46,772 nt of DNA from a virus, in the IMG/VR virus record IMGVR_UViG_3300023210_000060, positions 1-46,772 of that record, one strand, 5' to 3'. The notes below the pieces were generated by a model, which saw only the letters and a program-made list of their open reading frames with translations, did no database searches and was not told where the DNA came from. How positions within the stretch are numbered: position 1 is the first letter of the stretch; every line of letters begins with the position of its first letter. A program made the translations under genes and the position numbers. Below are positions 8,030-39,600 of the stretch, in pieces.

Positions 8030-8254
8030 CTACCAGTCAGGATATTCCCATCTTTCAATGTCAGATTTTCTTGATTTTAGAATTCTACGAATAGTGCATT
8101 CTTTACATTCGTAAGAATATGATGATGGAAACTCTCCCCTGTCTCTTCTGGTCAAGTAATATCCTTCAATCAAGTCCTTTGTCTTTTTGCAGGTTCTACA
8201 CTTCCGTTCTTTAAATAGTAAATGCTCTAAGGATAATTGATCATTAAAGTCCAT
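8030..8254 (-). CDS. Small zinc-knuckle (CxxC...CxxC) protein linked to gp17
   Basis: A 74-aa protein with two CxxC pairs: CRTC (about 19-22) and CKEC (about 50-53). They are separated by a linker containing YYLTRRDRG and SYSYE, a spacing expected of a treble-clef or zinc-ribbon fold as seen in the N-terminal half of some phage HNH proteins. No HNH catalytic core follows, so it is more likely a nucleic-acid- or protein-binding knuckle than a nuclease. Its ATG overlaps the gp17 stop in the sequence TAATG, implying translational coupling to the large terminase. T4 has no gene here. A packaging-related role is inferred only from that coupling. Confidence 0.85.
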   Translation of the reverse strand: MDFNDQLSLEHLLFKERKCRTCKKTKDLIEGYYLTRRDRGEFPSSYSYECKECTIRRILKSRKSDIERWEYPDW

Positions 8255-9900
8255 TATCTATAATCCCACATATAAGATCTATCACCATATTCATCGGCAA
8301 ACCATCTATCTCCATCATTATCAACTTCACTTTCAATATCTAAACCATCAGAGAGAAAACCAAACGGAGCCATATCTTGATCGATTTGATTTTTTTGCTC
8401 TTCATAAATTCTTTTACGAACATCATTATCAGTCATTTCTTTGAAATAATCTTGTGCAACTAACCATGAGAATATAACTAAACACATCGCTAGATCATCA
8501 TTACATCCTTCTTCAGCTTCAAATGATTGCCTCTTTTGAACAAACGTAGTTAGTTCAGAAATAATATCATAATCACTTGTTATAAGTTTATCATCTTCTA
8601 ATAAAGTTTTTAAATTAGAACATCCCAATTTTTTTACTGCTGATGTCATTCTGACACCCAATTGAGATTTTTTGCCAGAAAATCCAGATCCAACAACTTG
8701 ACCTGCTCTACCTCTCATAGAACACATGAGTAAATTTTCATACTCAAGATCAAAATAAAGAATAGATGCAACTTGATCCCCAATATCATTGACTTCGACT
8801 AAAACAAAAGATTGATTATATCCGTCTGCAACTTGTTTGATGATACTTGGAAATACCATCGGTTTTATTTCATTATTTCTATATTTTGCAACTATCCTAT
8901 ATGGAAATTGTGTTATATCATATACGATGAAAGCTGAATAGTCACGTTCTACTCCTCTAGCAACGTCAACTGTCATCATGTAATTATGATCCTTTAAAGG
9001 ATCTTGGTAAATATCTAACCCTTTATTTCTTTTTATTGGATCATCATATACTAAATTCTTTAGTTTAGTTACATCAATAAGAGTATCAACAGATCCTAAG
9101 AATTCACATTCAAACTCAACTTTGAACTGTTGCTCTGATGTGTTTGCAATAGTTTGAGATTTCCACTTAGTATTCCTTCCAGGAACTTCAGACCAGTGTA
9201 CTGCAGTTGGTATATATTCATTTTTATTTCTTTCGGCATCATGCCACATTCGGTAGAAATGATTCATACCATGTGGTGTAGATACAATAATTACCTTGGT
9301 GTTTTTACCAGACGAGATAGTAGGATAAACAGAGGCAAAGAATTGGTCAGCAATATGATTTGGGATGAAAGCAAACTCGTCAAGAAAGATGATATTATAA
9401 GAACCACCACGAACAGCAGATGCAGATGTAGATGCGGCTATAATTTTAGATCCATTCTCCAATTCTAATGATTGTTTATTCCAAGAAACAATACCCTGTT
9501 GCATCCACTTTGGTAAATTTTCATATGCAAGTTGCAATCTTCCAAGAAGATCCTTTGCAGTAGCTGCTTTGTTTGCCAAGATAGCAATATTAACATTGTC
9601 ATTAAAGACTGCATAATGAAGTAGATAAGACACACATGTTGTAGACTTACCAGTCTGACGTGGCATCTTACAGATGTTGAATCTATTCTTATGAAAGTTT
9701 TTTACAAGTCTCTCTTGAAACTTGTACATCTTAAATGGTACAAGACCCTCATCTAGAGAAACAATTTTGATATAATTTCTAGCAAAATATACAGGATCTT
9801 TTTTACACTTCAAGAATTCCCGAATATCATCTTCAGAAAATTGAATCTTTGTATTTGCTTTTTTTAGATTGGGATTACCAAGATAAATGCTTTCACTCAT
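8254..9900 (-). CDS. 17: Large terminase subunit gp17 (packaging ATPase-nuclease)
   Basis: This is the motor and headful nuclease that pumps DNA through the portal. It is 548 aa (T4 gp17 is 610). The N-terminal ATPase shows a Walker A variant MPRQTGKST (79-87), Walker B with catalytic Glu in IIFLDEFAF (170-178) and a coupling motif VSTPHG (206-211). The C-terminal RNase H-like nuclease shows the first Asp in TVDVARG (D312), an acidic centre in LVEVNDIGD, and the last Asp pair in CNDDLAMCLVIFSW. All key residues are intact. Unusually, the small terminase gp16 is not immediately upstream: a 532-aa gene intervenes, ending 13 nt before this ATG. The stop overlaps the next gene's start (TAATG). 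Confidence 0.97.
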   Translation of the reverse strand: MSESIYLGNPNLKKANTKIQFSEDDIREFLKCKKDPVYFARNYIKIVSLDEGLVPFKMYKFQERLVKNFHKNRFNICKMPRQTGKSTTCVSYLLHYAVFNDNVNIAILANKAATAKDLLGRLQLAYENLPKWMQQGIVSWNKQSLELENGSKIIAASTSASAVRGGSYNIIFLDEFAFIPNHIADQFFASVYPTISSGKNTKVIIVSTPHGMNHFYRMWHDAERNKNEYIPTAVHWSEVPGRNTKWKSQTIANTSEQQFKVEFECEFLGSVDTLIDVTKLKNLVYDDPIKRNKGLDIYQDPLKDHNYMMTVDVARGVERDYSAFIVYDITQFPYRIVAKYRNNEIKPMVFPSIIKQVADGYNQSFVLVEVNDIGDQVASILYFDLEYENLLMCSMRGRAGQVVGSGFSGKKSQLGVRMTSAVKKLGCSNLKTLLEDDKLITSDYDIISELTTFVQKRQSFEAEEGCNDDLAMCLVIFSWLVAQDYFKEMTDNDVRKRIYEEQKNQIDQDMAPFGFLSDGLDIESEVDNDGDRWFADEYGDRSYMWDYR

Positions 9901-9913
9901 AATAATTATTGTT

Positions 9914-11512
9914 TCAGCAATTCCAAGCTCTTAGTGATTTTGATAGACGATCATCGCCTGTGTTGTTAGAAGGTTTTTGTCTCTTACGCATTCCTTTCAT
10001 CCTTGCACAGAATGATGCCCTTCTCTTGTTACCAACTTTCTTAGAAGGTGCTTTTAGATCAGAACCAGGATTCTCTTTTTCGTAAGACTTGCGTCCCTTC
10101 TCATTGAGTCCACCCTCACTGTTCTGACCAGACTTCTTAGTCCATGATGCACCTTCTGGCATAAATTGTCCAAAACTTTTAACACCTTCTACAGTTACAA
10201 GCGGCTCATTTTCAATACGATCTCTTTCAAAGAAATTTACCAATACAGCTTCAGGAAAAATTTTTCTGAGTTGAATTAATACATCTTCTCTAGAAGGTCG
10301 TTTTGATGTTGGAAAGAAAAATTGAAGTGACTTGTATTGGCCTCTAAAGGTAAAGAACATTGTATAAGTTCTTCCCATTTTTTGAATTCTTTCATATTTT
10401 TCTTCAACATACTCTTCATTTGATGGAGTAACAGAAGCAATATTAAATGTATTTTTTGATCCAAGCGCAACAGGACTTGAATTCATATCCCAATTTTTTG
10501 GTCCATATGAACATTCTTCTCTAGTTTCATTCTTCTCACATTGAGGGCAATAACGAACATTTCCCATACCCTCTACATGTAGATTGAGATTGTCACTGAG
10601 ATTTACTTCTTCTTTCTTAGTTTTCTTAACACAGTTTGGATATCTCTTTCCAAACATAGTCTTCATGCCTTTCTTCTCATAACCTTTCCAACATGCTTCA
10701 CCAATCTCTGTTTCTTCTTTTGTGCTATTGCCCCAGTTAGCAGCACCAGCCTTACGACACTTTACCAAAGCACCAGAAGCATAAGCAGAGGGCCATACAG
10801 AATAACGAGACTTGACTTTATGGTAGCAAGCGTCTTTCTTACCACTACCTTTTCCTGGTGTATCCTTTGCTTCTTTCATTGATTCTTTCTTCTTTTCTGG
10901 CAAATCTTTGTGCTTTGTTTTTGCAAAATCCTTTACATCTTTTAACTTCATACTGGATGCAGCTTTAGCAACCTCAGGTGATGGATTTTCCATTTCACCT
11001 TTTTGAGTTGCTCTCACCATTCCAAAAAATCTTTGCTGTTTTTTAGAAACTGCTTCTTCGTTTCTGATTTTTCTGTCAGTTTTTACCATGGTAGGTGCAG
11101 CTGCTCCAGTTTTTTTCTGTTGACCAGGATCTTCTCTTCTCTTTGCTGCCTTAGCAGCAACTCTTTCTTTTTTTGACATACTTGCCCTTTTAGAAGAAGA
11201 AACACATTTGGGTATACCTTCTCCAGGTTTATCACTTGCACAGGTTCCTCCTGTTACAACATTAACCCATCCTCTTTTACCACCTTTTGATTTAGATTTA
11301 CCAAACCAATCACGTAGCCCTTCTTCAGATATTCCACCGCCACCGTTACCATTTCCACCATTACCATTCTTTTTATTCTCGGAATCATCACCTTCTTCAT
11401 CTTTTGCAAGATATCCACGAGAACCAATATGGTATCCCATAGGAATCTTCTTACATTTTTTGTCTGTAAAACAGTAGTAATAACCAATTTTACATTTCTT
11501 AGATTCCGTCAT
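9914..11512 (-). CDS. Lysine-rich multi-module protein between the terminase subunits
   Basis: A 532-aa, strongly basic protein inserted between gp16 and gp17. It looks like a string of short modules: an N-terminal Cys cluster (C7, C14, C20); a Gly/Asn-rich linker (48-60); GLRDWFGKSKSKGGK then GWVNVVTGGTCAS (65-93); an Ala/Lys helix (107-130); SKKQQRFFGMVRATQKGE (156-173) with KDVKDFAKTKHKDLPEKK, resembling DUF3008; DACYHKVKSRYSVWPSAYAS (227-246), resembling DUF5872; CWKGYEKKGMKTM to YPNCVKK (274-297); a CPQC...C zinc-like site (322-334); an alpha/beta stretch (375-430); and a C-terminal SWTKKSGQNSEGGLNEKGRK to LRAWNC block (456-532), resembling DUF6321. These DUF names are from memory and unverified. 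Its ATG overlaps the gp16 stop (ATGA). Function is unknown; nucleic-acid binding during packaging is an inference. Confidence 0.9.
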   Translation of the reverse strand: MTESKKCKIGYYYCFTDKKCKKIPMGYHIGSRGYLAKDEEGDDSENKKNGNGGNGNGGGGISEEGLRDWFGKSKSKGGKRGWVNVVTGGTCASDKPGEGIPKCVSSSKRASMSKKERVAAKAAKRREDPGQQKKTGAAAPTMVKTDRKIRNEEAVSKKQQRFFGMVRATQKGEMENPSPEVAKAASSMKLKDVKDFAKTKHKDLPEKKKESMKEAKDTPGKGSGKKDACYHKVKSRYSVWPSAYASGALVKCRKAGAANWGNSTKEETEIGEACWKGYEKKGMKTMFGKRYPNCVKKTKKEEVNLSDNLNLHVEGMGNVRYCPQCEKNETREECSYGPKNWDMNSSPVALGSKNTFNIASVTPSNEEYVEEKYERIQKMGRTYTMFFTFRGQYKSLQFFFPTSKRPSREDVLIQLRKIFPEAVLVNFFERDRIENEPLVTVEGVKSFGQFMPEGASWTKKSGQNSEGGLNEKGRKSYEKENPGSDLKAPSKKVGNKRRASFCARMKGMRKRQKPSNNTGDDRLSKSLRAWNC

Positions 11513-11922
11513 TGTTGGTTTTTAAGAAATTTAGCTAGTTCTGCAGTAGACCCTACAAATAATGAATTATTTGTAATAGATTTTGGACCAGAGTCCTCAT
11601 CTTTATTTAGTTCCTTCATTTTTTTCTGCAAATCTATAAGTTTATCAGTTGTATCTGCAACACTTTTTATAATCTGTCCAGCAACTTCATATGCTCTAGG
11701 AGAATCTGACTCCTGAGCTAATTCCATAATTCCGTTTAAACTTTCTTGACCTTTTTCAATTAAAGAATAAAGATTTCCTCTTGTATATTCATAGTCTTTT
11801 TTAGACTGTTCAATTCTTTCATCAGAAACAACTGGAATAATTTCAGATTCCTTGGGAGTAACATCAACAATGTCGGTTTCTGTGTTGAGTGATTCACTAA
11901 TTTTGTCAAATGTTTTTTTCAT
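11509..11922 (-). CDS. 16: Small terminase subunit gp16
   Basis: This protein recognises concatemeric DNA and stimulates gp17 during packaging initiation. It is 137 aa (T4 gp16 is 164). The central part, YEYTRGNLYSLIEKGQESLN then GIMELAQESDSPRAYEVAGQ (about 45-85), forms the long helical oligomerisation segment typical of T4-type small terminases and ends in a coiled coil with LIDLQKKMKELN. The C-terminal TNNSLFVGSTAELAKFLKN is the short conserved tail seen in this family. The gene lies 11 nt after gp15 and overlaps the following 532-aa gene by 4 nt (ATGA). Confidence 0.92.
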   Translation of the reverse strand: MKKTFDKISESLNTETDIVDVTPKESEIIPVVSDERIEQSKKDYEYTRGNLYSLIEKGQESLNGIMELAQESDSPRAYEVAGQIIKSVADTTDKLIDLQKKMKELNKDEDSGPKSITNNSLFVGSTAELAKFLKNQQ

Positions 11923-11933
11923 GGGAGTTCATA

Positions 11934-12731
11934 CTAGATGTCTTTGTCCTGAGTTGGACTATACTTCTTACTATCATTGAAGACTTCTAAAGTTTCACTA
12001 AATCCAAAGTCATCCCCAGGCTCAGCATCTATTGGATCTGGTACTGCAGTATATCTAACCTCTCTCTTGGCATTTTGTGTGTCAACGCTATTATAGTAAT
12101 CAACTTGTACCTTACGGATGAGACCGTCTGTTGTCTCTGCGATTGGGCCAAATAGATATGTATTTGCTGTGAAACTTAAAGTATAGATAATTGCTCTTCT
12201 TGACTCAAAATTCCCCTCATATTCATCCTGCATCGAAATATTGTTTAGACCAATTGGAATATCTCTCTTTTCGCCAATTGAACTAATAAGATCTACAGTT
12301 ACCTTGAATGTTGGTTGGAAATATGGTAAAATTTGCTCTATAATTTGTAGAGCATCTTCATTGAGTTTTGCATAAATTGATAGTTGAAATTCCACATTAT
12401 ATGGAACTGGGAAAAAAACTTTCTTTAAGTTCTCACCATCAACGGCTTTAAATGTTTTTGTAATATTTGATTTTCTTGATGGGTCATAACTAATACCTGT
12501 CATTTCAAATGACATTCTTGGTAAAGTTATTGCAACTGGTTTATCTAGTCTTGCCTGCTGCTCTAGTCTAGCTAAGAACTTTTGTTGTGGTGCATATGCT
12601 AAAGGAACTGTAATATCACTAACTGTATCAGAATCAGTGCTAGTATGTCTTATATGAATATCATTGAAGACACTACCAAACGCAATGATTGTCTTCCTCA
12701 GTATTTCGTGATAGTAATAAGTTCCTAACAT
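11934..12731 (-). CDS. 15: Tail terminator / proximal sheath stabiliser gp15
   Basis: gp15 caps the tail at its head-proximal end and connects it to the gp13-gp14 neck. At 265 aa it matches T4 gp15 (272). Signature segments are the N-terminal GTYYYHEILRKTIIAFGSVF, then VPLAYAPQQKFLARLEQQ, VAITLPRMSFEMTGISYDPS and VPYNVEFQLSIYAKLNEDAL, as in T4-like tail terminator proteins. The C-terminal 60 residues are acidic and less conserved. Its ATG overlaps the gp14 stop in TGATG, so neck and terminator proteins are translationally coupled. Confidence 0.96.
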   Translation of the reverse strand: MLGTYYYHEILRKTIIAFGSVFNDIHIRHTSTDSDTVSDITVPLAYAPQQKFLARLEQQARLDKPVAITLPRMSFEMTGISYDPSRKSNITKTFKAVDGENLKKVFFPVPYNVEFQLSIYAKLNEDALQIIEQILPYFQPTFKVTVDLISSIGEKRDIPIGLNNISMQDEYEGNFESRRAIIYTLSFTANTYLFGPIAETTDGLIRKVQVDYYNSVDTQNAKREVRYTAVPDPIDAEPGDDFGFSETLEVFNDSKKYSPTQDKDI

Positions 12732-14110
12732 CAGTATGTACCAAATGGATTCGATTCTGTAAAGTCTAATATATCATCCGCTAATTCTTCAATCTCTTCA
12801 TTCTGAGAATATTCAATTTCAATCCCTGGATCGGAATTATAAGATAGTAGAGTGTAAGATGCTCCAGAATCGGATCCAGTAATTGTTTCGCCAGCGGTAA
12901 AGTTACCACTATTTATGTAGACATTCAGAGTATTGTCGTCCTGATCATACTTCTTGACTCTTGCAGTAGTTCCAGAAAGACTTCCAGTAACAATTTCATT
13001 GACTTGGAAAGTGCCAATTCCAGCGGATGGTGCCGAAGAAATGGCAACAACAGGTGCTGATGTATATCCAAAACCAGCATTTGAAAGTCTAATATCAGTA
13101 ACGCTACCACCAGCACCTATAACTGCCTGAGCCGTTGCAGATGATCCTGCAGATATTGTTGATGGGCCAGTTAAAGTTATTGTTGGAGTTACAACGTAAT
13201 TCGCTCCAGTATTTGCAATACTAATGTATTGTACAGACCCATCTCCTAGAGTTGCTGTTGCCGCTGCTCCTGCCCCTCCAGCACCAGAGAACGTTACTGT
13301 TGGGGTTTCTGTGTATCCAGCACCAGCGTTTGTGATTAGAACCTCATATACAGAACTATCCGTTTTTATTGCAACTGCAGTAGCATTGGTTCCACCAACT
13401 GGTGCTGTAGAAATTGAAACTGTTGGTGCTGATGTATAATCATAACCATCATTTGTAAGAGTAATCTGTCTTACAGATCCTTCATTTGCAATTGTTGCCG
13501 TAGCTGTCGCATTAATGCCAGATGAAACAAATGTTAGAGTTGTAATATATCCATAATTCTCAACAGCAGAATCAATTTCATCAACAGATGTTTCAATGAT
13601 CTCATCTTCGAGTTCTAAGAGTTCGCATGATAATTCATAAATGTAGTTTTTACCCAACTGGAAGAATGGTTTTTCGTGCTCTACATTTTTAATTTCATAT
13701 AATCTTTCTCCAAGTGGGAAATATATTACATCACCCTCTCTAGGTCTATCTGTAACTATAATTTCAGTTGGATCTGCTTTTTGTAAATCTTTTAAAAATG
13801 GTTCAATAAAAAGTTGAAATCTTTCCTCAGAAATTGTAAGAGAGATTTCACTTTTTAGTTGAACACCAAATTTTGAAAGAATTTCACTATTTGCTCCATA
13901 TCCCTCATAATTATTGAGGTAGGCTTCAATGATAAAATTATCATCAAGTTTTGATAAAGTAACTTCTCTTGATAATGTTTCAGTGCCTAAAATTTTTCTT
14001 GGTATGTAATAAACATCCAACCCATACATTTTAAGTTGTTCATTAACAAGATCCTGCACCAAAAACTGTTCGTTAGCAGATCCTTGTAGGAAAAAGGGAT
14101 TGAGTGCCAT
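12731..14110 (-). CDS. 14: Neck protein gp14 with a large repeat insertion
   Basis: gp14 forms the head-tail neck with gp13. T4 gp14 is 256 aa; this one is 459 aa. Residues 1-185 look like the ordinary neck fold (NPFFLQGSANEQFLVQDLVN; DVIYFPLGERLYEIKNVEHE; FFQLGKNYIYELSCELLE). Residues about 190-365 are an insertion of roughly four 40-45-residue repeats of the type GSV..I.LTN.GY.YTSAPTV, followed at 366-424 by a second module with twin GE...GS.SG motifs. The expected acidic C-terminus resumes at ADDILDFTESNPFG (445-457). The insertion corresponds to about 12836-13543 in DNA and resembles modules in gp8, gp7 and the 2456-aa protein. Starts and stops overlap gp13 (TAATG) and gp15 (TGATG). Confidence 0.93.
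   Translation of the reverse strand: MALNPFFLQGSANEQFLVQDLVNEQLKMYGLDVYYIPRKILGTETLSREVTLSKLDDNFIIEAYLNNYEGYGANSEILSKFGVQLKSEISLTISEERFQLFIEPFLKDLQKADPTEIIVTDRPREGDVIYFPLGERLYEIKNVEHEKPFFQLGKNYIYELSCELLELEDEIIETSVDEIDSAVENYGYITTLTFVSSGINATATATIANEGSVRQITLTNDGYDYTSAPTVSISTAPVGGTNATAVAIKTDSSVYEVLITNAGAGYTETPTVTFSGAGGAGAAATATLGDGSVQYISIANTGANYVVTPTITLTGPSTISAGSSATAQAVIGAGGSVTDIRLSNAGFGYTSAPVVAISSAPSAGIGTFQVNEIVTGSLSGTTARVKKYDQDDNTLNVYINSGNFTAGETITGSDSGASYTLLSYNSDPGIEIEYSQNEEIEELADDILDFTESNPFGTY
12836..13543 (-). repeat. GxGY beta-repeat insertion inside gp14
   Basis: Coding repeat region within gp14. Four divergent copies, each about 40-45 codons, carry the pattern V..I.(L/I)(T/S)N.G..Y...P.(V/I) followed by Gly/Ala-rich turns and an ATA.A strand; the last is followed by a GE...SG module. 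Boundaries are approximate and set where T4-like gp14 sequence stops and resumes. Confidence 0.75.
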
Positions 14111-24674: not shown

Positions 24675-24682
24675 TATTTATG
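24675..24682 (-). promoter_or_regulatory. Late-promoter-like CATAAATA before gp8
   Basis: The minus strand reads CATAAATA overlapping the gp7 stop codon, 24 nt before the gp8 ATG. Confidence 0.6.
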
Positions 24683-27600
24683 ATGAAACTTGCTTATTAA
24701 TATTTCCAGTGTTTCTCAAACCAACACCTCTTCTAGTAATTGATGGATAGGTTGTTAGGCCAACATCAAAAGTATTACCCTCAACTGTTAGAGTAATTGG
24801 AGACACACCTCTAGTGAAATTACTTAATTTGCCCCAAGAGAATTGACCAATATCATCACCTGTTGTGGTTATTATTCCAATAGTATCAGTATCGGACTTA
24901 ATATTACATGTGATAATACCAGTGGTTCCTTCAATGAAGTACTCTTGGATAATGTAAATATTGTCAACATTAGTGGATCCAATTCCAACAATTTCTGAGT
25001 CCGAAGAATCTACAGAAGTCACTCCAGTTCCAGTTACGGTATCTTTAACAACAATTGGATAACCAGGTAAAAGAGTTGGGAACAATGATACTTGACCAGA
25101 ATTGCTCAAATCAACTTGGAATTTAAGGGCCAATGGATGACCACCAACTCCTGTTGTAGTTCCAATACCAGTGATGATACCAGAGTATCCAAGAATAATA
25201 GGTGCATCTATAATTGTTTCAGTTACAGGTGCAGCGGTTGCAACAATAACTAGGGGTAAGTTTGTATTTGTATATCCAAATCCTGGATTTGTAATTGTAA
25301 CAGAAGTTAGAATTCCTCCAGAGGCAGATGCTGTTGCAATAGCAGTAGTACCAACACCAACAATTCCATATTTTGCATTATCAACCTTTGGTGGATTTGC
25401 AATTCTAATTGAAACATCACCATCAGGATATCCAGATCCACCATCATTGATTGTGAGAGATGTGATCGTACCTGCTACAGAAACTCCTGCAGTAACTGCA
25501 GCTGCTACTGGATCATTATAATCAACAATAAGTGCATCACAAACAATTTCTCCAAAGTTGGATCCATCAGCATCTTCTTCATATTGGAAGAATTTTGCAT
25601 CATCTAAGAAAATTTCAGTATCTGAAGAACCAAAATTACCAATAACTTTGCCCACAGGCATAATTTGTGCTTCCAAAGAATCTCTCACCTTGTATTGAAC
25701 CTGCTCAGAAATAATTACATCTTTCTTTTGTCTTGTAAAGTTGAGAGGACGGAATTTATCTCCATCAATTCCCTGCTGACGATAAACATTCGTTTCAATA
25801 TCAGTAGAATCAATAATTGAGAAAATGGTTCTCGTATCTTGAGATTGAACATCACCAGAAATAGATCTGAGCATTTGTACTCTGTCTCCTGGTTTGACTG
25901 TTTCATATACAGTCACTAGAGCACTATCAGTTCCTCTTGTACCTCTATAGAAGTAGAGGGAAATATCATCCTCAACTCTTGGTGGAGATGTAAAGTTGAA
26001 GTTGAAACTTGTACCACCTTCAAAGAAGTAATCTTTCTTGGGCACCTGAACAACGCCATTAACAAAGATTAGTAGAACAGCGTCCAAATCAATTTCTACA
26101 GATTGTTGGTCTGTAATATCTCTCTGGAAACTTAAACTATTTCCATTTAGCTTGAGTGGGAATCTTGTTCTTTGGCCATCCTGTAGACTCCTGATTGAGT
26201 CAATATAATCAATTTGTCCAAAGTTCCATGATGAGAATGTATCGTTTAGAACATTGAGAACCTCTAAAGTAAATTCACTATAATTTGTTCCAACTCCTAC
26301 AGCAGTTACTAGACCAACTGGTCTAAACAAATCACCTCTTAGGAATGCAAATCCTGGATTATTGAGTGTGAATCCTTTAACTGCAAAAGTAGTTGTTCCA
26401 ATTCCAGTCGTTCCAGCGGGGCCGACACTTAGTGATACTGTAACTCCTTTTCCAGTATCTGTAGTAGCACCAATACCAAGTCTGCTAATACCTTCAATTG
26501 GAAGATTTGCATATGATGGGATGGATACCTGAATGGTTGGATCTGTGTATCCAGTTCCACCATCTTCAATGGTAAATGATAGAGATCCTCCTGCACCAAC
26601 TGTTGTTATAATTGTTGCAGCTGATCCAGAATGACCATCCTCTTCAACTACAACTGTTGCTGCGTTGAAATAACCAGAACCAAATGTTAGATAATTGAAT
26701 TTGGCAGCTTCGGCAACAGTTGCACCCTTTCTTCTATTTGGAACAAAGGTATGGGCAAAACCAACCTTAAATACATCAACTTCAAACTCAGTATCCGTCT
26801 TAATTGTTTCAATTTCATATGGACCAACTGTCTTGATTCCATGTACAATTCCATGATCATCATAGATATGATCAATTGTAGAAACTCCTACATTAGTGAT
26901 AATTTGATTAGGAGCAGGAAGACCAAAGATTTTGAATTCAGATCCTTGAGTTCCATCTGGGAAAATTGAAGTTGTGATGCCAATTCTAACCTTACCAGTT
27001 CCAGAAACATAATCGTGAGCAATTGTAGAAATACCTACGTTTGTAACGATTGATGTTCCAGAACTTCCAGCATTAACGTTAAAGTAGAAACCTTGAGTTC
27101 CATCTGGGAAGATAGTTGTTGTCACGCCTGCATGAGGAGCTGCACATGAGAATTCAATATCGCGAAGCATTACCAAATCACCATCACTTAAACCATGATT
27201 ATCTGCTGTTAGGATTGTACTAACGCCAGTTGATGCAGTGTAATCAAAGTCATAGATAGCAATCTCATTACCATATGCAAGACAAGTCATTGCAATTCCA
27301 GAGAGATTAATTACATCTCCAATGGCAAGACCACTGTAATTTTTCTTAGTAGTAATAGTTGAGAAACCAGTTGTCTTATCATATTCAAAATTAGAGATTG
27401 CGAAAGGAATACCTCTATTGTCTGGGAATCTAGTGGTCGTGAATCCAGTCTCAACAACACCTCCACTATGAGCAACATAAGTATGTGCAAATCCAACTGG
27501 TAGAGCATTTACTGAGAAGTTCTTAGAGTCGATTACGTTTCCAACTTTATAACCACCAACAAATTTGACACCTTGGGCAACACCATTAGCTGAATAAGTA

Positions 27601-30600
27601 TGTGCAATTGTGGAAGGACCAACGTTAATCTTAATCTCAGTTCCAGAAGGAACATCTAGAACTTCAAACTCATCAATAATTGTGTCTGGGAAGATAGTTG
27701 TAGTTACTCCAGAGTGTTCTGAGGAACATGTAAATTCAATATCCTTGAGTCTTACAAACTCACCAGTAGTAATATTGTGAGTCTTTCTGGTTGCGATTGT
27801 GCTGACACCAGTTGCTTCAGTATAATCGAATCCAGAAATTGCCCATTCAATTCCAAGATCACTTGGGAATACGTTAGTCGTAATACCAGTTTCAACGTTT
27901 CCACCACTATGAGCAATGTATGTGTGAGCAAATCCAACAGTTGGAATCTGAGCTTCAAACTCAGTAGTGGAGTTGACCTTGGTTACATTGAATCCTTCAT
28001 CATATTGAACTTCAGATAGGATACCATGTGCGGAATAGGTATGGGCGATAGTTGAGATGCCAACGTTGATATTAATTGTAGAAGCGCCAACACCAGTTAC
28101 CTTAAAGGTATCTCCTTGAGTACCATCAGGGAAGATAGTTGTTGTTACACCAGCATGTTCTGAAGAACATATAAATTCAATATCTTCTAGTTTGACATCT
28201 GTACCAACTGAAATTTCATGATTTCCAGATAGTGTGATTATGCTTGATCCACTGTTCTCAGTATATTCAAAGTTGACAATTGCAAACTGCTTACCTTCAG
28301 AACTTGGGAAGACATTAGTAGTAACACCAGACTGAACAAGACCACCACTTACATATGTGTGAGCAAATCCAACAGTGTCTATCTGAGCCGTAAACTCTGT
28401 ACCAGATCCTACATTTGTGACTGTGTATCCCTCAAGATACTTAACACCAGAGACAAAACCACCACTATCATAAGTATGTGCAATTGTGGAAATACCAACG
28501 TTGACTTTTAGTTCAGTTGCAGAGGGAACTGATAGAACTTCATATTCAAATCCTTGAGTGCCATCAGGGAATGTTGTTGTAGTAACGCCAGCGTGCTCTA
28601 CGGCACATGTAAACTCAATGTTTCTAATATCAACTGTTTCTCCAATAGTTATGTTGTGGTTTCTGTTGACGGTAATTGTACCAACACCAGTAGACTCGGT
28701 ATAATCAAATCCAGTAATTCCATATTGAATTCCAGCTTTGCTTGGGAACTTAGTTGTTGTGATTCCAGTTTCAACTGTTCCACCACCAATTGGAATATGT
28801 GGAATAGTCGTTATACCGACCTGAGTAGTGAACTGAGTGGCGCTTAGAGCAGACTCTACGGTATTGAAGATTCTACCATTTGTGCCATCGGGGAAAATAG
28901 TTGTAGTGACACCAGCATGTTCTTCTGTACATGCAAATTCAAGATCAGCCAATCTCAAGGACATTCCTTTATTGAGAAGATGATTCGTGCTTGTAGTGAC
29001 AGTTAGGATACCAGAAACATGATCATACTCAGTACTGGAGATTCCCAACTGGGTGTCAAATCCCTTCTGACACTCCATTTCAAGATCATAGAACTTGACC
29101 TTCATGTTTCTGTTTAGTTTGTGATCACCGATTGTGGAAACAGTGATAATACCAGAAACATTATCATAATCTGCTGTGTAGATTCCAACCGTAGGTAAGA
29201 ATTCTTTAGTACATTCAAACTTCAGGTCGTGGAACTTGACCTTCATATTTCTATTCAGGTCATGTGCAGAGCTTGTAGTTACAGTAATGATTCCAGAGAG
29301 ATGATCGTAACTAGCAGTAGAAACTCCAAGTAGATTGTCAAATCCTTTAGCACACTCAAACTTGAGATCTCTGAACTTAACTTCCATATCTTTGTTCAGG
29401 AAGTGATCTGTTTTCGTCGTGACAGTCATAATACCTGATACATTATCATAATCTAGTGTAGAAACACCAACCAGACTGTCATATCCACTTGTACAATCAA
29501 ATTCAATATCTCTCAGTGAAACGAAGTCAGAAGATACAAGTCCGTGAGCAACTGCAGTGGTTACTGTTGCGATTCCAGATACACCATCATAAACAAAATC
29601 GGTAATTGTTGTATATGTTCCAACAGTGTCTGCACCAAGAATATTCGTAATACTGCCACCTGTACCAACCTCAGCGATGACTTTGGCACCAACTAGGGGT
29701 GCGATGCCAGTTCCGCCAGAAGATGCAATAGAGACGATTCTACCACCCACTGGTAGTTGGTTTTTAATAGCATCCAACTCACTTAAGTATGGATCACCAC
29801 TAATTAACTTAGTTCCACTAAATTCTACATCAACAGTAGTGTCGCTAGGATTTAATTCATAAACATTACTTGGGTTATTATCTGTTGTTTGGCCTTGATG
29901 TATTCCATTAATGAATAGAACACCACTTCCACTTCCTGTATCCAATCCAACTGGATAATTTCCACCAACAGTTAATCCAAAAGTCTTTGCAATGCCAGTA
30001 AATGATGGGGAAATATCATCATAAATTTCATTCGTTGTATAGTCTTGTTTTAGATAAACTCTTCCACTAAAATCAGATCTTAAAAATTCTAGACCTCTAT
30101 CATCAAGAATAAAATCTCCACCAGCACCCTTGGGAGCATCAACAAAATGGACTTTGCTTTCTACAATGTTATATGCACCTCTATGTACAATTGCTCTAGT
30201 TCCATCAGTATGAGTAACTTCTTCAGTACCAACAAATCCTCTTTCGACATTTACTAGATTAAATGTACCAACACCACTAATTGGGCCAGATGAAGATGTT
30301 CCCAAACCAACGTTTTGGATATTCATCAACTCATCATCGACTTTCAAAATATAATCTGGAACTAGAGTTGAAATTCCAGTTAGAGGGAGGAATGTTCTTC
30401 CGATACCAGCATCAACTTGAATATCATACTCGACGAGTGTTCTAGAAATTGGAGCCTGAACAACACCATCAAGAATGATTAAGGATTTTTCAAGTTTTTT
30501 CGTTGTATCGATCAGGTGATCATTTCCAGATCCAGTTGATGTTGGTTCAATTCCAACTCCTCTGAGAGCAAAATCTTTCTTGGTTGCCAATTTGATGTTA

Positions 30601-33600
30601 TTGTTATCAATTCTAATGGCAAATAGATTTGATGGAAGAATGTCAGTTGTAACTCCAGAGAAGCAAACTTGACTGGTGGTATTAGCTGTAGATACTACAG
30701 ATAAAGAAATACCAATTCCGAGTCTTTCAGAATAATATGTACTGCCAACTCCAACGGGGACATTATTGTCAACTACGATTGAATTGATTCCAATTGAAGT
30801 AATTGTGCCGAATCCAGTTTGAGTCAATTCTTCTACGATTGTATCCCCAATGGCAAGAACCGATGTATTTGCAATTGAAGTAATGACATTTGTGCCATCA
30901 GAGTTGCCAACAAAGAATCTAAATGTTGACCCAACACTAACAATTGTTGCTCCATCTCCAATACCTGGACCAAAGAATTCATCGTCAATATTGAGACCCT
31001 GATCTGTGCTCGCAGAAGAAACAACTTTACTATTGGTAAAAATATCACCTGTTACTTCAGTACCACCAGCAATTGTTGTTCCAATTCCAATTGCTTCAGA
31101 TGTGATACCAGAAATTGTTGATCCAGACTCATAAACAATATCCTGACCATCTTGTAAGAAATGACTTTCAATAAAGATATTTCCAGTAGTTTGGTCGAAG
31201 ACAGTAGAGTTTTGTGGGTTGAATCTTCTGGCATAAATTTGGAATCCTTCATGCTCCAATTCAAAATCTAATTTTGCATTTGGTGTATATCTTGATTGAA
31301 AAACATTTTCGATTACAGTACCAAATCCAAAATCTGGAATTGAAGTGATATTAGTGTCTTGGTCGATATAAACAATTTCACTGAATTCCTCAATTCTAAT
31401 TGTATCGCCAGTAAATTTGCTATCTGGAATAAACACCAGATTTGCAAACTGGCCACTATATTCAGAACTAAATGTACCAAATCCAATAGCAGTATTAATT
31501 CCAAGTTGTGGGTATTCAACAACAAATGTTTCAATAGAACCGAAATCCTGAGTAAACATTACTTGACTCAAAGATTGTGTGTTTCCAGATGAAACTCTAA
31601 TAACAGACTTTGCAAGTCTATCGTTCAGTGTTGAAATTCCAACAACAGTGATGCCATATCCAGCTGCAACTTCTTCAATTACATTGGATTCTAGTCTGGC
31701 AGTTCTCTCAGATCCACCTTCTTGTGTCTCTAGTTTAAAGAATTCAGATCTCAATCCAACATTAGTTGTTTTAAATCCAACTATGCTTGCTTTGACTAAA
31801 GTGCTATTTGATGAATTATTTGTATAATTTAAATTGAGAACATCGGATACAAGAGTAGCACCAAATGTACCAATTGGATTGAATGATAGTAATCTATCTG
31901 AAGTATTGAATCCAAATTCACCAATGTAAGCATTTACCCCATCATGTAAAATTGTTACCTCAGCATAATCTCTTTCAGAGTTTATTTGATTTGTTATTTC
32001 AACATATGCAAATGCTGAATTAAAATCACCAATTCCAAGATCAACAATAGATGTTGTTGTACCAACTCCAACTGTGTTTGTGGAACCAAATATAACAGTA
32101 TCTCCAATAGTTACTGATCCAATACCACTTGTTCTTGAGTCAAATACTTGACGGAAAGCCTTGATATCATATGTTTTAAGTGGATTAGATGGTGTGAATC
32201 TTATTTTTACAGTTGCAGATACATCATCATATAAAGAGTCAATCTCACCAAGTGATGTTATTTCTGCCTCTGGATCAATTACTGGGACTTGTGGGTTTGC
32301 CTTTATTCTGTTCTTTTGTAAAATAAATGTATTTGGTTCACCATCAACAAGAACAACAATTTCATGAACTTCATATGAAGTTCTATCAACAACATCTCTT
32401 ACAATAATGATAAATCTACTTACTCCAGTTCCAGCAGAGTATGAAATAATATCTTTAAAGTTTCCAACAGTATTTTCAAAATCAATAAATTCTGAGCTAA
32501 TATCATCAATTGTAAGAACTCTATTTGTCTTACATTCGATATAGTTTGTTAGTTTTTTATTACCAAATTTGATACTGTTTGTAATGGCTGATGGTGAGTT
32601 AATAATATCAGTATCTACAGCAAAGTCAAAATTATTAATGGTTGTGACATCAGCATCAGCAAAAATATCAATAACTAATGTAGATGCTCCAGCATCCACA
32701 AAATTTGTAGCAGCAACAGCAACCGTTTGAATTTGCGTATCCGCAAAATTCTTCGTTCCAGAAATATGAGCTAATCTGTTTACTGGATCGATAAGTTCAT
32801 CAAATTCAATTGGACTCTTAATAGAGTAAGCCATTTTCTGATAATAATTGTTATCAGGAACAACCTGAGAATCATCATTTAAAAATCCTCTATTATCGGT
32901 CCAACCATATCTTATAGTTGATCCAAAATTAACTTCATATAGTCCATCATACCTATCAATAGTTTCTACCGTTGCTCTTGTTCCAGAAACTTCACCGATA
33001 ATCACATCACCAATTACAAGTTTGTAATCACCAAATGTTCTTAATCTCAGATCATCTGAATAAACTACTGTTAGGTTTGTTTTGACATTATTGTTGCCCT
33101 TCACAACAATTAGAGATTCATTATCAATAAACGTCGCACTCTTTAAAGTCACATTAAATATTGGATAATTTTCTCTCTTAATAATAGTACCAAAGTTTAC
33201 AGTAGTTACTGCAATTCCAGGATTTGTTGAAATTCCAGATAGATCTATAGTTACAGTTGATGGAACAATACCACCATTAAAACTGGTAACTTTAAAGAAA
33301 TTGAATTTATAATCTTTTGAATTAAATCCGAGGCCATCGCTAGAGTACTCATCAATACCATCGACAAATACTTCATCACCAGCACGTAATGGGTTTGTAC
33401 TAAATCCGAGAATTGGAGTAACAACAGTAAACGTGACAATTCCTGTATTAACACTATCTGCAGTAATAATGCTCAGGCCATTATCACCAGTTAATGCATA
33501 TACAGTATGAGCAACACCTGCTAGTCCAAATCCTGGAGATACAATATCAACTTTATTGATTGATCCAGAATCGATGCTACAAATCAAAGATGCATTATCA

Positions 33601-36600
33601 ATTTGTTTACCCGTTGTAGATTCAACAAGAGTCAAATTTGGGACAGAGAGATAATTTTTCCCGCCAAATGATGGTTTTACAGTATCAAGAGTTTTATTTC
33701 TTTTCAATTCATAATATGTTGGAATATCTGCAATTGGCTTAAGTGTCTTATCAACAGAAAAATCAAATCCAGATTTTTGAACTTCAGTTGCGCCCAAAAT
33801 TCCAATTTCTTTGGAAATTGCAAATAGTTCAGCATTACTTCCAGATTCAGTTGTTATTGTGGAAATTCCTGGAGTTATGTTATAATCACTTCCTTTTGAT
33901 ATAATCCTTGATTTTGCAATTCCGCCAGAAGTTGTTGTAGATCTAGTGGTATATGAAATTACGTCACACTCAGATAATGTATATGAATCCTTTTTGGGTT
34001 CTTCTCTTAGATTTACTAAGAATGAAGTTGAAGCTACTCCAACAACAGATGCAGATTTATTAGTATAAGAACTATCGGAGAATAGTATTCTTGAATAGTT
34101 ATCAACTGAAGAATCTGGTTCGATTAGAGTATCTGTTGATAATTCTTCTACATTATAATAAAGTTGATTTGGTAGGTATTCATTGAATTTTACTGTTATT
34201 GTTGCTGTTGTTGTTCCAATTCCAATTGCTCCATCCGTTTCAACTTCAAAAACAGTTGATTGCCCAGTTCCTACAATTCTATTTCTATATTCTTGATCAT
34301 AATAAATTTTAAAATTATATCCAGATAAAGATGAATCCGAAACATCAAATACCAAATCGTTATTTTTTATAACAGGAATTTGTGGATTTACCTTAGATAT
34401 TGTATGTGAGGTTCCGCCCACAGAAGTAAATTCAATAAGATTTAAAGTGTCTCCAGTAATATCACTCTTTGTTTCAGCTAGAGAGAAACTATCTGGATCT
34501 CCAGAAAATACAAAATATTTTCCAGTTTCAATTCCTGCAGGTAACTCATCCGCATCATAGAAAATTAGATCACCAGTAACTAAACCATGACTATTAACAA
34601 GAATCCTTGAACTTGTGAGGCCAACAGAAGTTGAAGTGAATCCGATTGGATCTACAGTAATATTTTGAATGAAATCTTCAAATAAAACTTTTACAGATGT
34701 TGAAGTTCCGATTCCAACAGAAAGATCTGATTTTAGTGTAAAGTTTACAGAATCTCCAACTTGCAATCCATGAGATGATGCAGTTGAAACTCTTGCGGTC
34801 AGTCTATCAATATTTCCAGTAATTTTATTATTAATACTGGTTATGTAATATTCATAACTTTCCGAGTCACAATTACTAAAGAATAGTTCATCGGAATCTA
34901 ACGTTGTTTTGATGCCAATGTTATTTTTACTCTTATTGGTAATATAAACAGTTTGGATGTCACCAGAGTCTGGTAAGTTAAATGTTGATCCAGCACTTAC
35001 TGTGGAAACAGATACTGGATTTCCAGAAGATGTCTTTACAAAATCAACTTTTTGGTTATTTTTGAAAATGTGGTCTTGGATATAAATTGATTGAGTTGGA
35101 ATATCTCTAGTCGTAGTTACTCCAAGAAGTTCATAATCTCTTACTGTAGAAACTCCAACTTCTGTGCCAAATCCAATGACTTCAGTTGGATTGAAATAGT
35201 ATACAGTATCAGCTTTAGAATTTAAATTTTCTCCAGAATAATTAAATATAATTCTATTTGCTTTGGATGTAATAGCAGTTCCAACGGTATGTCCACTTCC
35301 AGAAATTCCTCTTACTGCTCTTACAACTCCTCTAAAATTATCAAAAACATTTTTGGAATCAAATACATTCAGTATAGTTAGAGTTTCATCGCCAATCAAA
35401 ATATCAGTATTCGGTCTTAGGAACTCTGGAATGGGAGCGACTGGAATATCTGTGGCCATGCCACCAACTGCCTCTGCTGGCATATTGGTCAACATTTTAA
35501 AATCATCTGCAGGAACACCAATAGTTTTATTTCCACCCAATCCAGCCACGAAAGTTGACAGACCACTTATGTTAATGATGTTTGTAGCTTCTAGATCATG
35601 ATATGTTGAAATGTATCCAACAACCTGATTGCCATTTAATCTCTCAAAAGTAAAGTTCTCGTAAGATAAAACTTCTTTAGTAATACTTTCAACATCTTTT
35701 CCGATCAGTTCAAGAACCTCTGCAGATGCTCCACCACCAGTTCCTTCATCATCAAAAACAATATTGTCACCAACTTTGTAGTCCGATCCAAAACTAACAA
35801 TACCAATATTATCAATACCACCATTGAATTTGGATTTAACTATGACTCTTTGTAATTCTGTCTGATATGGTTGGGTGAAGAAGTCATAATTGGCAAATAA
35901 TTCAGATACATTATATGGGAATGTATTTCTTATTAGTCCATTGTTATTAAAATCAAAATCTTGATTAATTTCAACCTCAGATCCTGCAATATTTTCTCTT
36001 ACTAATGTTGATCTATAAGTATTACCAACAAAGTATGGAAAACTTGATATAATATCGCCAGTTCCTGGATCATTCTCAATTGTGGCATAATATGCATAAA
36101 CTCCATTTGGATATTCGGGAGTTTTTGAAAATCTTCCATTGTGATCATCAAGATCACCAGTTCCTTTAAATGAATAGTCTTCAACAAAGATACCGGCTGG
36201 GAATCCTGAAGGTCTGTTTACAACCTGACTGACATCCAACTCATAACCAGATTTTATTTCTTTGATTAAAGATGTTGAATTGTTTGCATCTGTATATCCA
36301 TATGATCCATAAATTGGGTTTCCGTCATATGCATATCCAATTAAAGGAGAATGTGCATTTTCATTGGTATCTTCAAAACTATTTTTTAGATTTTGATTAT
36401 AACCAATGACACCATATTGTAATTCATTTTCACCCTTATCAAAAACAGTTTCTCCATTATATTCTGGGAATCTAGATCTATTATTTAATGATAGGCCTCT
36501 AACTTTGCTATTAAAAGTTGCATTTGATCCTCTAGATACTCCAGTAATAAAAGTATCTCCAGCATCATATTTTGATCCAGAATTCAGTACTATAGCATCA

Positions 36601-39600
36601 ATAACATTTCCAACATCATTAATAACAGCTCTTCCTACTGCACCAAAACCAGATTCGCTAGTAATGATTATATCTGGTGGTGAAAAATAATTTTCTCCAA
36701 ATCGTGTAACTAAAATATCAATTATTTGTCCATCAATGATAAGTGGTTGAAACTCTACATCATTGCCATTTAAAACATTGATCCCTGGCCTCTTTTCAAA
36801 ATTCAATATTTTGGAACCATAATCAGTACCTTTTTCATATAATAAAACATCTACTATTTCACCAGTTACAATTGGAGTTCCAGTTATAACACCAACAGTA
36901 TTCGCAATTGAAGCATTAATCTCAACTTCAATTGGTTGGTAATTGAAAACATGTAGTCCCGTACCAATACCAGAGAACTTTTGAACAAGTCTCCTATTAA
37001 AATCTGAAGTATCTGTTCCACCTATGCCTGCATCTGATAACCTGAAATTGTTATTGTTGATCTTAATAATAAAATATTGATTATCCGTATTCAATCCAAC
37101 AATATTATCTCCAGTTGTTGAATACGTTACTAATTCACCCGTCTCGTATCCATGAGATGTAAATTCTAAAGAATTAGTTACCGTTGAAACTCCAGTGGTT
37201 TTAATAGCTACTTCTCTATTTGAATAACCAGATCCAGGATTTAGTACATTAACTCCTGTTAATTTTTTGGTGGACTCTTGTAATGTAAAGATGTGTTTTC
37301 CACCAGAAGTTGATCCAGTACTGAATCCTACAGTATTGATTCCTCCATTGAAATCTGAAACAGTTTCATATAACCTAAAGGTAAGTGAATCTATAACTTC
37401 AGCATAGTAAACACCACCAGTCTCTAAGAAATTGCCCGTAAGGGTAGTTTGTCCAAATCCAGTAATTGGAATTGATGGGTTTCCATTTGAACTATAGACT
37501 ATTGGTTCACCATCTTTAAAATTGTGATTGTTAATAGTTTCAATTGTGTCTTCATAAATGGAAACTCCACCACCAGATTCAGTATATTTTCCATTAAAAC
37601 CAACTTGTCTGAAATAATCAATAACAATTGGTTCAACTTCAGCACCAGTTCCATTTCCACCAACAATAGAAATACTATTGATCTTATTAATATTGAAATC
37701 TTGTGGATCAATTAAAACGTCTTTTAGTACACCAGTAACCGCTAGGTTAGTTATAGCATTAGTTCCAGTTGTTGAACTGGAACCAGTAATATTAAGTTTT
37801 GGTGGATTTACAACATCATAACCACCCCCACCATTGAAAAGAGTGATTTCTTCTAGTGGACCATAATAAATTTTATCTTCGACTTTATAATTAACAACTT
37901 CGACACCATTAATTAACATTCCCGTTGGGCCGGGAATTGTATTAATTTCACTACCAGTGTCAAATGATCTTTCTAGGCTAAATTTTTTGAGTAATTTTTG
38001 TCCTCTTATCTTTTTATTGTATTGTGAAGCAGCGATAAAACTATGACTTCCAGTATCCTCATCTATGGGTTCATTTATTTTGATATTTTGGGATACTTGA
38101 ATGAATGATCTTGCAACGTATAATCTAATCTTATTTGCAGGACTTAAAACTTCGACGAAATAATTTCTACCAAATTCAAGACCACTTATTGGAGTTTCTG
38201 CTGTCCCTGCGATGTAAACAATTTCATCTCCAGTTATGAATGGAACAGTATCTGAAAAGGATAGAATATTATAAGTTCCATAACTGTTTAAATCCTGAAT
38301 AGATCCAGAATCAACAGAAGCTACTGGTATTGTTCTTTTAATTGTATCGAGACTTATCTCATAATCTGGAAGTGAATTTGATGCTACAAATATTTCACTA
38401 CTATCCTTAGTAATATACGTATTCAGAATATTTGAAGTAATTTTATCATTACCATATTGAAGTTCAATTCCAGAACTACTTGCTTTTTTAAGTTTTCTTC
38501 TAATATCATAACTGATGCCAGTATTAAGATCACTAATACCAGTTCCAGATAGAACTACTTCATTATCACCAGTTATTGATACTGTGGCTTCACTTACTGG
38601 AACAATATTTGTACCCCTCTGCACAACTTCAACAACATCACCATTGCGAAGATATGCTTTATCAATATCAATACCCAATACAAAAACTGATCCAGCAAAA
38701 CTACTGATTTGTATTCTGGATGCTGTATTATATTTCCATGAATTGAAAGTATTTTCGATTACCGTCTTATTTTCATCTGGATTTATAATTTTTCTACCAA
38801 TTGATTTTGTTCTAAAATCATCACCCAAATTTGTATTGGCAATCCTCTCACCAGCAATTGGCTCAAAGTTTGAAATCGTTCCTGTCAAACGAAGTTCTAC
38901 CTTTTCATTATCACCTCTTGTGTATCCATAAATTACATCATTTGTCCTAACATCATCACCAGATAGAATAGTCCTTTCAATACCAGAACAATTTAAAAAC
39001 TGGTTAATAGTTTTATCTGTATACGTAATAACATTATTTCCAGATACCAACAATCCACTTTTAGGGAATCCAATGGTGGTGTCTACAGAAATTACATTAT
39101 CACCAATTGAAACTTCACCAATACATCTAGTAGATGGTGTGATTGAAAATTCACCCTCAAATCCAGGAGAAGGATCTAAGTATTTTTGGAATAGGTAGAT
39201 ATTGTAATAATCTTTTCCATCTCTATTAGTATATTCAACCTCAGAAATTGGTGCAGAAGCTCCATTTATGACTAAACTATTTGAATTATTATCTTGGGAT
39301 AATGTCTGACCAGATAGTAAAAGTGGATCTCCTCCAGAAACTTTTTCGGCAACTAGGAATAATCTTCTTCTAAATTCAGACTCTGATGAAGAAAATAAAG
39401 ACTCTGAATTATTTCTAACAGTTGCATTTTCGCCAAATAGGCATGACATTAAAATGTTAAAGGACTCATTAGTTCCTTTAGACTGATAGAATGATCTTAG
39501 GTTTTTTACAAAATTATTTACGTTTAGATCAGAATTAAAACTTTCGTCTTCAAATCCAGGAGCAAAAAGAACCTTTAAACTCTTAAAAAATTCTCTAAGG

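Follow-up and report, generated by a model that had tools for sequence, protein, structure and literature searches.

The window analysed here (the whole stretch of DNA) is a 46,772-base IMG/VR fragment. Among sequenced phages it is closest to Synechococcus phage S-T4, the match covering 95% of 25 kb with 81% identity, and the window therefore belongs to a T4-like cyanomyovirus. The initial annotation had pointed to a Lys-rich open reading frame (ORF) of 532 aa placed between the two terminase genes, joined to gp16 by a 4-nt overlap (ATGA) and separated from gp17 by 13 nt, and this arrangement is confirmed. It had also stated correctly that gp16 and gp17 of T4 are adjacent and overlap (96194-96688 and 96672-98504). 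The genes at the locus are as follows:

11509..11922, minus strand: gp16, terminase small subunit, with the ATGA overlap at the start of the 532-aa ORF (Pfam and PHROGs)
9914..11512, minus strand: whole gene for the 532-aa modular protein (PHROG 727 / T4-GC119 / Syn9 gp114)
8254..9900, minus strand: gp17, terminase large subunit, 13 nt downstream of the 532-aa ORF (Pfam and PHROGs)

The ORF starts with ATG and encodes a protein of pI 9.7 with 79 Lys (14.8%), 32 Arg and 14 Cys. Because dN/dS is ~0.2 in comparisons with both a 90% relative and S-T4, and because an identical protein is encoded by a second metagenome contig (L253), this is a real, constrained gene. In a scan of the window, the late promoter TATAAATA was no more frequent near the gene than expected by chance. 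Elsewhere in the window, a gp14-like protein (12731-14110) carries a long Gly/Ala-rich extension with matches to PHROGs of virion structural and baseplate proteins, and positions 24678-40076 form one 5,132-aa ORF.

The protein had been thought undescribed, but it is already catalogued. It matches PHROG 727 near full-length (E 2.1e-122; residues 54-532 against positions 103-430 of the 450-position profile), and the same gene appears as T4-GC119 in the records of S-SM1, S-SM2, Syn1, P-HM2 and P-SSM4 and as gp114 in Syn9. Judged by these matches, it is a member of a known cyanophage family of lysine-rich, module-built proteins of unassigned function. Relatives occur in 503 of 50,697 public phage records, nearly all of them cyanophages (mostly marine), with a few pelagiphages and others, so that a widespread family still lacks an assigned role. 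Matches in cellular records appear to be metagenome-assembled genome (MAG) or single-cell contigs resembling phage DNA. No match to the protein was found in NCBIfam, nor any in plasmids with a composite query (a module-4-like consensus plus module 8). A literature search returned no papers naming DUF6321, DUF3008 or DUF5661, and DUF5872 was named only in an algal virus.

The initial annotation had counted at least five separable modules; the modular build stands, and iterated profiles, by which the modules are defined here, resolve eight:

11399..11500, minus strand: module 1 (residues 5-38), a small beta fold by prediction, with three invariant Cys
11075..11326, minus strand: module 2 (residues 63-146), marked by W and Cys (Cys pair 91/103), distantly DUF5872-like
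10886..11059, minus strand: module 3 (residues 152-209), DUF3008-like, three-helix, no Cys
10718..10837, minus strand: module 4 (residues 226-265), Cys pair 229/252
10622..10702, minus strand: module 5 (residues 271-297), CWxGY...C beta hairpin, Cys pair 274/294
10469..10558, minus strand: module 6 (residues 319-348), CPxC-x8-C knuckle
10196..10402, minus strand: module 7 (residues 371-439), well-predicted beta-beta-alpha-beta-beta domain
9917..10153, minus strand: module 8 (residues 454-532), DUF6321, Cys pair 502/532, normally C-terminal

The domain names suggested earlier fared unequally. DUF6321 scores well above the Pfam cut-off (73.9 against 28.5 bits) and is present at the C-terminus of all 43 aligned family members; DUF3008 remains below threshold (18.6 of 24 bits); DUF5872 is unmatched by the protein itself and weakly matched in one relative (E 0.008). 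Modules 2 and 8 are strongly basic (mean net charge ~+10 and ~+15). Among relatives the modules are shuffled: modules 4 and 5 may be swapped, module 6 may be N-terminal and module 5 duplicated, module 8 usually comes last, and module 7 also occurs as a separate downstream gene of ~105 aa. DUF192 is carried by 16 of the 43 aligned members and, where placed, stands between modules 2 and 4; its carriers include A1 members such as L164, and also L211 and L038. DUF5661 is found N-terminally on four relatives (L178, L357, L379 and L393), and a module-5-like stretch occurs in a 2-Mb Mucilaginibacter contig (L435 5001-5093). No enzymatic domain was recognised in the 532-aa protein, the matches being to DUFs only. 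A search with PADLOC gave one weak Csn2 match over module 7 (E 0.004), judged to be chance, and assignment to an anti-defence family was rejected.

The two Cys clusters that the initial annotation had offered as possible zinc sites (7/14/20 and 322/325/334) lie where it had placed them, in modules 1 and 6. Cys sets occur in modules 1, 2, 4, 5, 6 and 8, with three invariant Cys each in modules 1 and 6 and two in each of the others, and among non-redundant module copies these pairs and triplets are never singly lost. Conservation among relatives reveals no fourth conserved metal ligand in the Cys-bearing modules, and the putative zinc binding by modules 1 and 6, with three rather than four conserved Cys each, is undecided. 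AlphaFold predicts confident folds for module 7 (beta-beta-alpha-beta-beta) and module 3 (three helices), and for parts of modules 1, 5, 6 and 8, with disordered linkers between modules. Neither sequence nor fold searches of the PDB gave a significant match to the protein or its modules; the nearest fold neighbours of module 7, RNA polymerase epsilon YkzG and T7 Gp2, are not significant (E ~1-2).

Linkage to the terminase genes was counted in 200 distinct multi-module relatives, the nearest among the matches listed, each with at least 400 nt of downstream sequence. gp16 and/or gp17 share the fragment in 184 of them, which upholds the proposed terminase-operon link across the set: gp17 lies downstream on the same strand in 140 (at most 20 nt from the gene end in 80 of the 140), a further 44 have gp16 on the fragment, and 16 have neither. 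When module-bearing ORFs are counted in the loci fetched with each module query, again among the matches listed, those beside gp16 or gp17 make up 95/100 for module 2, 74/92 for module 8 and 121/141 for stand-alone module 7, with module 3 being promiscuous (49/119).

This tight coupling to gp17, in a basic and plausibly DNA-binding protein, is what favours the role put forward in the initial annotation, that of an accessory to the terminase, or a DNA-end factor, at work during packaging. However, the interval lies in a hypervariable insertion region that is already known, the cyanomyovirus hyperplastic region between g15 and g18 (PMC2984593; PMC3037559). Varying sets of metabolic genes (plastocyanin, PTOX, gnd, zwf) occupy it in Syn9, S-CAM22, S-RIM2 and S-SM1, in three of which (Syn9, S-CAM22 and S-SM1) such cassettes separate the family gene from gp17, and tail-fibre or virion structural genes occur within it in S-SM2, S-SCSM1, S-T4 and S-RIM2. 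Adjacency to terminase is weak evidence for packaging because the region also houses photosynthesis, carbon-metabolism and tail-fibre genes, and since some relatives (in P-SSM4, S-SSM7 and, as gp160, S-CREM2) are encoded well away from terminase, position alone carries little information on this point. Moreover, no module resembles a packaging family in Pfam, PHROGs or family searches. A packaging role is thus very unlikely.

Two further placements were observed: a module-8 gene lies between gp15 and gp16, rather than between gp16 and gp17, in contigs L077 and L080, and in the T7-like cyanophage P-SCSP1o (L096 5947-6201) a gene for DUF6321 by itself is found between those for the major capsid protein and the tail tube.

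Turnover at the locus can be followed in three contigs (L174, L254 and L255) that encode a 90%-identical protein. L174 has two genes between the family gene and gp17 that are missing from the window, one for module 7 standing alone and one for a protein of 425 aa; counterparts of the latter in S-T4, S-RIM2 and S-B43 belong to PHROG 1645, ‘virion structural protein’. The break falls within module 8:

9909..10153, minus strand: recombination zone, where DNA identity between the window and L254 drops from ~95% to ~50% across module 8

Identity to L254 is ~95% until ~10150 and 92% again from 9908 into gp17, and two L254 genes are absent from the window at this zone. What the alignment shows is one recombination event within module 8 with the loss of two genes.

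Virion proteomes of relatives bear on the suggestion, also made initially, that the protein may be associated with the head or virion, and homologues found in S-SCSM1 and S-CREM2 virions support it. For S-SCSM1, 45 virion proteins were detected by mass spectrometry (PMC9602691), and virion status was taken here from deposited product names and notes. The record annotates gp029 as a virion protein, in which seven of the eight modules are present and identity is 51% over 99%; gp279 (module 3 alone) is annotated likewise, and gp030 (module 7 alone) is not. In S-CREM2, the virion table (PMC10665884 Table 3) includes gp137 (a thin detection, with 4 unique peptides and 4.1% coverage), which consists of modules 7 and 8 and is located between gp16 and gp17, and gp160 (7 unique peptides), which consists of modules 2, 5 and 4 and is located outside that interval. 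Against these detections, gp191, gp192 and gp194 of S-SZBM1 (modules 7, 8 and 3, from a module scan of the gp16-gp17 interval) are not among its 30 detected virion proteins (PMC9146016). Contaminants, moreover, may be present in phage stocks purified on CsCl. The virion evidence for the family is therefore positive but mixed.

Another S-SZBM1 protein, S-SZBM1_195 (87 aa, beside gp16, L420 20378-20641), was considered as a family member and placed outside the family because no module matched it; this hypothetical protein has the third-highest emPAI in the S-SZBM1 virion.

The absences in S-SZBM1 would be expected of a late intracellular protein that has no virion role and is detected through carry-over in CsCl stocks. 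The S-SM1 homologue, too, is annotated as hypothetical (status again taken from annotation) although the S-SM1 virion was analysed, and carry-over in the virion stock was flagged by the S-SCSM1 authors themselves (PMC9602691). Detection in two different phages, in each case of module-bearing proteins from two loci, argues against this explanation, which we regard as quite unlikely, and virion association of the 532-aa protein is likely.

As for where in the virion the protein would reside, composition and sister proteins offer two clues. Firstly, the T4 internal proteins IPI-III, with 12.6-15.0% Lys and pI 8.9-9.5, are close to the window protein in both measures, whereas the other late window proteins examined have pI 4.1-6.0, with the exception of a 74-aa endonuclease VII-like protein (8.7). 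Among themselves the T4 internal proteins vary widely, a capsid-targeting sequence being their one common feature, and they touch DNA through their lysines (PMC3012670). Secondly, a leader of the T4 type is found on single-module sisters of the protein. We used a strict motif, MK[TSND][FY]xxF, and a loose form; over 48 kb of T4 the strict motif finds exactly ipI, ipII and ipIII. A T4-type leader (MKTFKEF...) is borne by 51 of the 54 proteins that consist of module 7 alone and by 6 of the 37 small module-8 proteins; among background ORFs it occurs in 28 of 2,039. In S-CREM2 all four genes with a loose-form start encode proteins of the virion proteome (52 of 219 proteins), a result whose p ~0.003 is indicative only, since T4, the sister proteins and a part of the S-CREM2 starts had been viewed before the motif classes were chosen. 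Leader-like starts (MKDFDSF, MKNFSSF, MKSFLQF) were seen on S-CREM2 gp6, gp13, gp136 and gp154 (L411-L413) and S-SCSM1 gp281 (L416), a group comprising a SAM hydrolase, a cytidylyltransferase/NMNAT and other cyanophage virion proteins. We found no earlier report of this leader on cyanophage virion proteins in a literature search. A leader in the style of the T4 internal proteins may mark packaged effectors in cyanophages and, if so, would help to predict which of their proteins get packaged. The 532-aa protein itself begins with MTESKKCKIGYYYCF, and the motif is absent from it and from the window, so that by the leader it does not qualify as a T4-type internal protein; the leader is likewise missing from 175 of 176 multi-module family ORFs.

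These clues also weigh on the possibility that the protein is an external virion component, a neck, tail or fibre accessory whose modules serve as outer adhesive or cross-linking units. Virion detection fits this equally well, and the tail-fibre or structural genes in the interval of the four phages named above are in its favour; yet its high Lys content and pI set it apart from the remaining late structural proteins encoded in the window, its single-module sisters bear a leader of the internal-protein type, and it has no similarity to fibre folds. We consider an external position rather unlikely.

The best single reading, which in our estimate stands at even balance, is that of a virion-associated, DNA-bound internal head protein, the location in the head being what we infer from composition and sisters. 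The protein would be produced late, along with the terminase genes, and would enter the virion, most probably lying on the DNA within the head, as the T4 internal proteins do. Its Lys-rich modules would contact the DNA, with which it would be delivered into the host, and the Cys pairs may serve as disulfide or metal staples, holding together modules that are too small to fold by other means. Recombination in the hypervariable locus turns the set of modules over, as would be expected if the modules face changing host targets or act as interchangeable DNA-binding units. If the family belongs with the proteins that are carried in the virion and possibly ejected from it, it would offer cyanobacterial virology a defined candidate set for early host takeover or counter-defence.

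A wider proposal, possible but doubtful, is that cyanomyoviruses possess a cassette system of internal head proteins, in which small, Cys-stapled, Lys-rich modules, either single with a T4-type leader or strung together at this locus, are recombined and ejected with the DNA. If true, this would be a counterpart of the T4 internal proteins on a far more elaborate plan. In its boldest form, module 7 might bind host RNA polymerase, which, given the weak fold neighbours, we offer as a lead only.

Three known systems invite comparison. The closest is the family itself, T4-GC119 / Syn9 gp114 / PHROG 727, with which the window protein shares the profile match, the C-terminal DUF6321 and the gp16-gp17 interval; it differs in that module 3 (DUF3008-like) fills the slot in which many T4-GC119 relatives hold DUF192, and the two genes that follow it in the 90% relatives are missing from the window. 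The polyvalent proteins of the P1 DarA/DdrB type (PMC5512222) are likewise multidomain chains with shuffled domains that are predicted to be packaged, but the modules of the window protein are small, basic and devoid of a recognisable enzymatic domain. Finally, T4 IPI-IPIII resemble it as a Lys-rich, hypervariable set with pI ~9-10, and they share the MKT(F/Y)xxF leader with the sister single-module cyanophage proteins; they are, however, small, single-unit proteins that carry this leader, whereas the window protein, at 532 aa, is multi-module, Cys-rich and leaderless.
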